A stretch of 27,001 nt of DNA from positions 1 to 27,001 of IMG/VR virus record IMGVR_UViG_3300035698_027371; one strand, given 5' to 3'. Position 1 is the first letter of the stretch. Each line of letters opens with the position of its first letter. This stretch comes from a virus. Below the pieces are notes generated by a model. The model made no database searches and was not told where the DNA came from. It was given only the letters and a program-made list of their open reading frames with translations. This document shows positions 14,218-16,373 of the stretch, in pieces. Both the position numbers and the translations under genes were made by a program.

Positions 14218-14226
14218 CTTAAAAAA

Positions 14227-14247
14227 GCCCGTACTTTGGCTACGGGC
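14227..14247 (-). terminator. Terminator of the tmRNA gene
   Basis: GCCCGTA and TACGGGC form a perfect 7-bp, mostly G-C stem around loop GCCAAAG. On the - strand six T follow. It closes the tag-coding half of the permuted tmRNA and may define the 3' end of the primary transcript. Confidence 0.85.
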
Positions 14248-14489
14248 AAATCTCCTGATTATGAGTACGTATTACGCAGCCATAGCCATTGTTGTTTGTA
14301 ATTCGCCGTTTATTGCGATTTTATTAAGTTCTTCACTGTTACTTACATTCTGCTTGTCAAAAGCCATAACATCCCCATTTGCCAACTTTTTAAAAAGTTG
14401 TATTTATATTCTGTAATTTTGTGGAAATGCAGGGAGTCGAACCCTGGTCCAAACAGTTGTCTCTCACAACTAGTTTCAAAGAACAAACT
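14248..14489 (-). ncRNA. ssrA: Circularly permuted tmRNA (two-piece)
   Basis: tmRNA rescues stalled ribosomes by acting first as tRNA-Ala, then as message for a degradation tag. In - strand order the gene first holds the acceptor half. Hairpins AGTTT/AAACT (14472-14489) and GTTGT/ACAAC (14457-14470) come first, then the P2 strand CTGTTTG (14456-14450), the T-arm CAGGG-TTCGACT-CCCTG (14446-14430), the acceptor strand CATTTCC (14429-14423) and discriminator A (14422); CCA is not encoded. After a 45-base spacer (14421-14377) comes the coding half. This has the acceptor strand GGGGATG (14376-14370), GGCTTTTGACA, the P2 strand CAAGCAG (14356-14350), a candidate pseudoknot stem TAAGT/ACTTA, and tag frame AINGELQTTMAMAA with stop (14316-14272). 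The acceptor pairs at 7 of 7 with G3-U70, the alanine identity pair; P2 pairs at 7 of 7 with one G-U. The order is the reverse of a standard ssrA gene. RNA ends after processing are inferred. Confidence 0.88.
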
Positions 14490-14567: not shown

Positions 14568-16373
14568 TTATTCTAAATCTGTAACTTCTTCTTCACCACC
14601 ACCCATATCATCTAAATCACCGCCCATATCGCCCATATCGCCACCCATATCGCCACCCATATCGCCACCTCCAGCAAATCCACCACCCATATCGCCGCCC
14701 ATGTCGCCACCTCCTCCTATATCTTCTCCTGTTGCAGCAGCCAATCTTTTATATGCCGCAATTAATTTTTGAATTTCTGCAATTCTTTCTTTTCTATATT
14801 TTTCATTAAGCTTAATATCAATATCTGACATTTGCATATATTTTTCTATTAAAAACTTAGGATCAAAATATGGAACATCTACTGCTGTTCCATCCGGGCC
14901 AACACTTGGATGAGTAATATTTATTAATGTACTAATTAAATTAGCACCCGCGTTTGCAGTTTCTCTTTCTTTAGCAATTGTAAATAAATTTTCTTCAACA
15001 AATAATAATCCGATTGCGCCCTTAAGATTTTTATCTTTTTCAAACTCGGGATGTTTAAGAACAAATTGATACCATGTTGGTTTTAAAAGAATTTCCTTAA
15101 ATATTGATCTAACACGATTAATAAAATATGAAAATCTCATTTCTTCTCTAGCAATACCATCATCACCTGCTGACCAATTACCACCTTCACCTCCACCGCC
15201 ACCACCGCCATGGGATTCAGATAATGTATTAAATCTACTTTCTGGAACTTTTGTTTCAACAATAAATCTCATCCAGAAATATTTAAGTGAATCTGTATTT
15301 GATAAATCATAACCTTCTGGTTTAAATGAATCAATAACTGTTTCTTTTCCATCTTTTGATGGAAGTATATAAGTTTTTGCAAATGAAAAATTAGGTTGTC
15401 CATTTATTGTTACTTCACCAGATTCATCTGTAATTGTTATATCTTCTTTATACATACCACGTAATTCTGCTAATCTTGTTCGAGCTTTAGCTTCAGATTG
15501 TGTACCGATTGGAACAATAATTTTCATTCTATATTGTGAATTAATTACATTCCAAATAATTCTTGAATTTTCAAGAGTTCTAAGCATATTAAATGAACGA
15601 ACTAATCTTTCAACATATGATAATCTTGAAATAAAATTTGTTCTTGCCCATGACATATAAATTAAGTTGGCATCTAATAATTCTCTTTGTCTTTCAGTAT
15701 CATTTCTATATTGAATCCATACTTTATATTCATTTCCTTCATCATCTTTCTTTAATTCAGGTTCTAAAGAAACCGGATCAAGTTCTTTAAATCCAATTAC
15801 ATTTTTTGCATTATCTTTATCATCTACATCATAAATAATTTCAAACGCTAAAAATCCATCAATTAAAAGTTTCTTTAAATAATGCCATGCATCATGACCA
15901 CCGTTAAACCCAAAAGCATAATATATTTTCTTAAAAGATTCATTTAAATCATTAATAATTTCTTTTGCTTTATCTTTTTTTAATACCGATTTTAATACTT
16001 TTGTATTAGGATATGCGAAAAAATTGTTATCATCATAAATAATTGTTTCATCAGATATAACTTCTAAAACGTGTTCAATTTCACCATTCATTGCAAATCT
16101 TCTAAGAAAATCTCTTCTTGTTGGATATTCTTTGTCATAATAAGCAATAAATTCTTTTTGACCGATATCTGCTCCAGTAAAAATTTGAGACTGACCATAT
16201 AAATTATACATGTTATCCTCAGTAGCTTCTGTAATACCTATAGATTTGGATTGTTTAATTACTTTATCATTCCATTTCATACCAAGAGCTGATAAATATC
16301 TAATATTACGCTGTATGTTTGATACAAAACCAGTTGGTCTTCCATCTATGTTGCGAAGTGTGAACCCTGCCAT
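14568..16373 (-). CDS. Portal protein, T4 gp20-like
   Basis: A 601-residue portal, the dodecameric ring through which DNA enters the head and on which the prohead is nucleated. It aligns by eye with gp20: YPTRRDFLRRFAMNGEIEHVLEVISDETI (about 84-112), the GFKELDPVSLEPE strand, SYVERLVRSFNMLRTLENSRIIW, YRMKIIVPIG, and KARTRLAELRGMYKEDITITDESGEV (the gp20 clip region). Then come an ILPSKDGKETVIDSF loop and PESRFN. Its length exceeds gp20 (524). A Gly-rich loop GGGGGGEGG (about 391-399) follows, and a C-terminal tail of GGDMGGDMGG-type repeats (from about 550) that gp20 lacks. The gene is followed by the tmRNA. Confidence 0.9.
   Translation of the reverse strand: MAGFTLRNIDGRPTGFVSNIQRNIRYLSALGMKWNDKVIKQSKSIGITEATEDNMYNLYGQSQIFTGADIGQKEFIAYYDKEYPTRRDFLRRFAMNGEIEHVLEVISDETIIYDDNNFFAYPNTKVLKSVLKKDKAKEIINDLNESFKKIYYAFGFNGGHDAWHYLKKLLIDGFLAFEIIYDVDDKDNAKNVIGFKELDPVSLEPELKKDDEGNEYKVWIQYRNDTERQRELLDANLIYMSWARTNFISRLSYVERLVRSFNMLRTLENSRIIWNVINSQYRMKIIVPIGTQSEAKARTRLAELRGMYKEDITITDESGEVTINGQPNFSFAKTYILPSKDGKETVIDSFKPEGYDLSNTDSLKYFWMRFIVETKVPESRFNTLSESHGGGGGGGEGGNWSAGDDGIAREEMRFSYFINRVRSIFKEILLKPTWYQFVLKHPEFEKDKNLKGAIGLLFVEENLFTIAKERETANAGANLISTLINITHPSVGPDGTAVDVPYFDPKFLIEKYMQMSDIDIKLNEKYRKERIAEIQKLIAAYKRLAAATGEDIGGGGDMGGDMGGGFAGGGDMGGDMGGDMGDMGGDLDDMGGGEEEVTDLE

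Follow-up and report, generated by a model that had tools for sequence, protein, structure and literature searches.

Two-piece tmRNA, encoded by a permuted gene whose 3' half precedes its 5' half, has separate origins in several lineages of bacteria. Models of the permuted form have been built for three main clades of bacteria with permuted genes, the alphaproteobacterial (RF01849), betaproteobacterial (RF01850), and cyanobacterial (RF01851) (PMC11915505). The independent evolution of two-piece tmRNA is cited in PMC3978253, together with the tandem-duplication model. The form also occurs in phages, where it accounts for 53 of 133 unique tmRNA structures (PMC9004378). In view of these published phage examples, the suggestion in an earlier sequence-only reading of the locus described here, that a compact permuted gene beside a T4-like portal gene seemed undescribed, is not valid as a general statement. 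Permuted tmRNA in phages is already known; in the present case, the tmRNA is one-piece both in sister phages and in the inferred host phylum. A search of the main texts of open-access papers found none that deals with permuted tmRNA in phages of Bacteroidota or with one-piece sisters of the Lak type.

The locus is in a window (the whole stretch of DNA that was analyzed) of 27,001 nucleotides (nt), positions 1 to 27,001 of IMG/VR record IMGVR_UViG_3300035698_027371. Our main reading, to which we give a probability of roughly 0.8, is that the gene encodes a working two-piece tmRNA and belongs to a clade of huge T4-like phages, which probably infect Bacteroidota, and that a one-piece ancestor of the gene was permuted within the phage lineage.

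Anatomy of a permuted tmRNA gene beside a T4-type portal gene

A permuted two-piece tmRNA gene sits on the minus strand of the window, immediately behind the 3' end of a T4-type portal gene (14568 to 16373, minus strand; PHROG 213, E value of 1.9e-48) that marks the context of the locus. The Rfam model tmRNA_permuted (RF04321) matched positions 14471 to 14272 of the minus strand with 69.4 bits (E value of 1.2e-11), and its curated cutoff is 47 bits. ARAGORN run on the window called a permuted tmRNA with the tag GELQTTMAMAA. Both programs had been proposed as checks by the sequence-only reading. Together with the PHROG 213 assignment and synteny in relatives, they bear out its claim of a permuted tmRNA beside the portal gene of a T4-like phage. 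The T arm, acceptor strands, P2, and 45-base spacer that it had described are all present where it placed them.

All coordinates that follow are on the minus strand. The acceptor piece is flanked on its 5' side by a short hairpin (AGTTT/AAACT, 14472 to 14489), for which the evidence is weaker than for the other helices. A hairpin recurs at this place in relatives with different letters, as read by eye. The stretch TGTTCTTTGA (14485 to 14476) lies a short way 5' of the acceptor piece, and we take it to resemble boxA, an antitermination element in the rRNA leaders of Bacteroidota. The whole acceptor piece (14422 to 14456) was delimited by the RF04321 alignment and pairing counts. Its elements, identified from the sequence and the same alignment, are the 3' strand of P2 (CTGTTTG, 14456 to 14450), followed by GAC, then the T arm (CAGGG-TTCGACT-CCCTG, 14446 to 14430) and the 3' strand of the acceptor (CATTTCC, 14429 to 14423). 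The piece ends with A73 (14422), and CCA is not encoded.

The RF04321 alignment places a 45-nt intervening spacer next (14377 to 14421), which is predicted to be excised. The 5' end of the coding piece (14350 to 14376), supported by the sequence, the alignment, and pairing counts, comprises the 5' strand of the acceptor (GGGGATG, 14376 to 14370), GGCTTTTGA, and the 5' strand of P2 (CAAGCAG, 14356 to 14350). In the window, the acceptor pairs at 7 of 7 positions, including G3-U70, the T stem forms five pairs, and P2 forms seven. The tag frame called by ARAGORN (14272 to 14307) starts at the resume codon GGC (14307 to 14305), the context of which is conserved in relatives, and it ends with the stop codon TAA (14274 to 14272). 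Around this stop codon is a P5-like hairpin (TGCGT/ACGTA, 14266 to 14278), identified by a pairing count in relatives. The 3' end of the transcript is predicted to be at an intrinsic terminator, GCCCGTAGCCAAAGTACGGGC plus a T run (14221 to 14247), which recurs in many relatives. A promoter scan at the window locus found no sigma-70-like site exceeding chance.

The helices are conserved and covary in related phages

Relatives were found in IMG/VR through the adjoining portal gene (PHROG 213). Because acceptor positions in these relatives had been picked by best pairing, we ran a decoy control with the identical search. The combination of a 7-bp acceptor carrying G3-U70 and a T stem of 5 bp was present at 33 of 33 homologous loci, compared with 11 of 2252 decoy stretches from the same phages. 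The tmRNA signal is far above chance.

Pairing statistics were computed for 31 distinct phage sequences with 1000 partner shuffles. The acceptor stem was paired in 217 of 217 cells (best shuffle, 198). Its positions 4 to 7 change on both strands (GGGGATG/CATCTCC, GGGCCAT/ATGGTCC, and GGGCTTG/CAGGTCC), and G3-U70 is invariant (31 of 31 sequences). The T stem was paired in 155 of 155 cells (best shuffle, 118), and compensatory changes are present. P2 covaries as well, with 205 of 217 cells paired when at most one bulge is counted (shuffle maximum, 173). The acceptor and P2 counts supply the covariation that the sequence-only reading had suggested looking for in related phage contigs. The 5-bp hairpin at the stop codon was paired in 134 of 155 cases in relatives (best shuffle, 121), and the pair that varies most involves the wobble base of the final Ala codon. 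When 30 sequences were folded as an alignment, the score was −57.1 versus −5.7 (standard deviation of 2.8) for column shuffles (z of −18.6), and it recovered P2, the T stem, and the acceptor in permuted order.

The T loops differ from TTCGANT in L258, L261, L271, L032, and L266 (GGCGGAA, GGCAGAA, AGGCATA, and ATCATA), and stem pairing is retained. Spacer length among relatives ranges from 15 to 186 nt. Rfam searches with the spacers of the window and its relatives matched no riboswitch and no other known RNA. Some spacers (L258, L267, L271, L257, L261, L268, L269, L026, and L028) contain recurring modules without an Rfam match, among them CTAACCCGTCGCGTTAGTACGG and AAAGG..TGATTGAGCC..AATCA, which resembles a pseudoknot.

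GGC as the most likely start of the tag

The recurring resume context in relatives is TAAA(C/T) and then GGC, or less often GAC, AGC, or GCA. An upstream GCA varies in distance and frame or is absent. Because TAAA(C/T)-GGC recurs while the upstream GCA shifts or vanishes, the tag is most likely GELQTTMAMAA from GGC rather than AINGELQTTMAMAA from GCA. The start at GCA (AING) in the sequence-only reading is probably three residues early. We consider a start at GCA less likely because its register varies in relatives, although a TAAAC-GCA context is also found in L271, L275, and L023.

The window tag frame ends with Ala-Ala-stop. A tag frame and stop are retained in all relatives except one (L254, which is unclear), and the tags include GVQTEMAMAA, GENSYALQMAA, GEQFKEYRMAA, and GETVNEMRMAA. 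The last residues of the tag are MAA or IAA in the phages, whereas they are ALAA in the common host tag. The genomes retrieved with the pattern GE(N/T)NYALAA were those of Bacteroidota, apart from one that bears another name. (The genome named Limnohabitans, L124, has a Bacteroidota-type tmRNA tag and was placed among Bacteroidota by genome search, and its name or binning is probably wrong.)

Distribution of the permuted gene among portal relatives

Among searched records with a portal identity of at least 60%, 34 of 38 have the permuted tmRNA, with the same half order and at one place. It lies 141 to 1456 nt downstream of the portal gene where the distance was measured. Contigs bearing it reach 405 kb, and another is 323 kb. 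The four negatives at this identity, which may or may not have lost the tmRNA, are contigs of 4 to 42 kb; in L187, L210, and L211 among them, ordinary genes occupy the site behind the portal gene. No permuted tmRNA was found in 25 records with a portal identity of about 51% or less or in 11 named related phages. No portal relatives were found in bacterial genomes. In a 269-kb relative (L017), the portal gene itself has in-frame stops at about 4517 and 4853, perhaps a recoded stop.

Likely hosts and one-piece sisters

By portal, the nearest named relatives are Prevotella Lak phages (44%) and the uncultured 462-kb phage LR756500 (40%). Next are huge phages (634 to 735 kb) and those infecting Tenacibaculum and Chryseobacterium, and also Sphingomonas phage PAU. 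Helicase neighbors are similar to the portal neighbors. Shine-Dalgarno motifs are expected to be rare in Bacteroidota genes, and among the 28 genes of the window just 1 carries a motif of this kind. Bacteroidetes have been predicted as hosts of Lak phages and of phages larger than 634 kb (PMC7162821). From the portal and helicase neighbors, this published prediction, and the Shine-Dalgarno count, we infer that this clade of huge T4-like phages probably infects Bacteroidota.

One-piece tmRNA scoring above the RF00023 cutoff was found in LR756500, three Lak phages, LR756504, and IMG/VR records G441, G459, and G460. In Lak, G459, and G460, the one-piece gene is upstream of and close to the portal gene, whereas the permuted gene is on the downstream side. 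The one-piece sister tags GEYNEYRMAA (G460) and GNNAEMRMAA (LR756500) resemble GEQFKEYRMAA and GETVNEMRMAA of the permuted clade, and the Lak tags end in EFRMAA or DFRMAA. The P2 flavor TTGATTGCA with TGTAAGAC is common to G459 and the permuted clade. A tree of the portal gave full support to the one-piece sister group, and placing the permuted rows in a single group with the three negatives among them was not rejected (p-AU of 0.504). The basal order is tentative, with one change of tmRNA form in a quick tree and two in a careful one.

All Bacteroidota loci with a local ARAGORN call were one-piece (68 of 68, in a sample picked by tag and hence biased). RF04321 matched 1 of 395 Bacteroidota genomes, with few candidates scored per genome, and a second, overlapping sample of 198 genomes had no permuted match. 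The single genome with a match (G254) also bears a one-piece tmRNA of 160 bits. Therefore, its permuted copy is an extra. This copy (L183) adjoins tRNA genes and is perhaps in a prophage or other mobile element.

Origin of the permutation

We rejected an origin from the known permuted bacterial lineages because the alpha, beta, and cyano models all scored below their cutoffs. The best of them for the window was the beta model (38.7 bits; cutoff of 84). In relatives, the scores were at most 49.8 for alpha (cutoff of 50), 38.3 for beta (84), and 41.4 for cyano (70), and the best model varied. Because the sisters and inferred hosts are one-piece, the sister tags and P2 are alike, and these models fall below cutoff, the simplest reading is that the permutation arose inside the Bacteroidota-phage lineage. 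We lean toward this being a separate origin, additional to those in alphaproteobacteria, betaproteobacteria, and cyanobacteria, with the Lak-type sisters keeping the one-piece form.

Alternatively, the permuted gene might have been acquired ready-made from a crAss-like or other Bacteroidota phage, or from a known permuted bacterial lineage, and have replaced an ancestral one-piece gene with RNA function unchanged. Transfer from another phage is the strongest competing reading, since a permuted tmRNA, annotated only as SsrA, is present in four genomes of Crassvirales (cr125_1, cr10_1, cr130_1, and cr60_1; loci L044, L288, L289, and L287, respectively). The permuted copy in one Bacteroidota genome would also fit an acquisition, as would an unrelated phage contig, L248, with a permuted tmRNA and the tag GESVEMAMAA. 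So would the position of the gene on the opposite side of the portal gene from that in Lak, G459, and G460. However, the tags and P2 agree with those of the one-piece sisters, the three lineage models do not reach their cutoffs, and the tag start in the RF04321 consensus is GCAAAC, whereas in the phages it is mostly GGCGAA. We therefore regard acquisition as possible but rather unlikely.

Some neighbors of these other permuted genes were also recorded. A RAGATH-9 RNA (154 bits) ends 20 nt ahead of the permuted tmRNA match in cr125_1, and a RAGATH-20 RNA (122 bits) is about 240 nt upstream of the permuted tmRNA in cr60_1. A ClpP-family-protease-like gene, identified by eye, is 3 kb from the tmRNA in L248. 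KVP40 and other Vibrio phages were rejected as matches; the KVP40 element is a tRNA.

Proposed mechanism and function

According to our main reading, the one-piece tmRNA of ancestors of this phage group would have been permuted within the phage lineage. When expressed, the precursor would fold with its helices nested in permuted order, P2 outermost and then the T arm and acceptor, so that the acceptor stem is closed by the spacer as its loop. This spacer would be excised by the tRNA-processing enzymes of the host, with RNase P acting at 14376 and 3' processing and CCA addition after 14422. The acceptor and coding pieces would stay joined through the acceptor stem and P2. G3-U70 would lead to charging by host alanyl-tRNA synthetase, and SmpB would deliver the charged RNA to stalled ribosomes. 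The SmpB used would be that of the host, because no SmpB gene was found on the 323- and 405-kb contigs of the permuted clade, which are possibly incomplete. (SmpB is encoded by Lak phages, the 634- to 735-kb phages, and record G456 [L281 to L286].) The ribosome would then move to the tag frame, stop at TAA within the P5 hairpin, and be freed, and the product with its phage-encoded MAA end would go to host proteases.

A different function is conceivable for the same processed and charged RNA. It might mainly displace or interfere with host tmRNA, or mark host proteins, rather than rescue phage translation. The departure of the MAA and IAA ends from the common host ALAA is consistent with this. 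Host-protein tagging has been proposed (PMC9004378), and a passage of PMC11915505 cites inhibition of endogenous tmRNA in E. coli by a tag-less phage tmRNA form (DS6A). However, the near-universal retention of a tag frame and stop suggests that tagging and termination matter, and we think this function unlikely. A functionless remnant or chance assembly of tRNA-like and tag-like sequence might account for the noncanonical T loops of L258, L261, L271, and L032, but it is extremely improbable given the RF04321 score and the same locus in divergent phages, and it is contradicted by covariation, with complete acceptor and T-stem pairing and compensatory changes.

Comparison with known systems

A two-piece phage clade beside a one-piece sister clade, with inferred hosts that are also one-piece, offers a close natural comparison. 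If the phage origin is separate, then the step from one piece to two could be reconstructed and tested, with sisters that are still one-piece. Two-piece tmRNA is found in both huge phages and Crassvirales of Bacteroidota without mention in their annotation, and the phage tags depart from the usual host tag.

The window gene shares with RF04321 and its alpha, beta, and cyano forms the order of the halves, an acceptor with G3-U70, the T arm, P2, and a tag frame. It differs in scoring below the cutoffs of the alpha, beta, and cyano models, and most of the phage relatives start the tag with Gly instead of Ala. Methylophilales phage Melnitz and the pelagimyophages are similar in having permuted ssrA in T4-like marine or aquatic phages (PMC9004378). 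However, the ssrA of Melnitz clusters with that of alphaproteobacteria and is accompanied by a glutamine riboswitch (PMC9004378), whereas the window phage has a Bacteroidota-type tag, no lineage model at cutoff, and no riboswitch found. The Crassvirales tmRNAs are permuted and have the same likely host phylum, but those phages are unrelated to the window clade, their spacers are longer, and their tags are different.

Lak, LR756500, G441, G459, and G460 are portal-related phages with similar tag ends (EFRMAA, EMRMAA, and NEYRMAA) and, in G459, the same P2 flavor. Unlike the window clade, they have a one-piece tmRNA of 357 to 413 nt, and Lak phages also encode SmpB. Finally, Bacteroidota chromosomal tmRNA shares the Gly resume codon, and its TTTTGACAGC and GTTTGGAC flanks are similar to those in part of the phage clade, but it is one-piece, about 365 to 400 nt long, and its tag in the sample studied is GENNYALAA.
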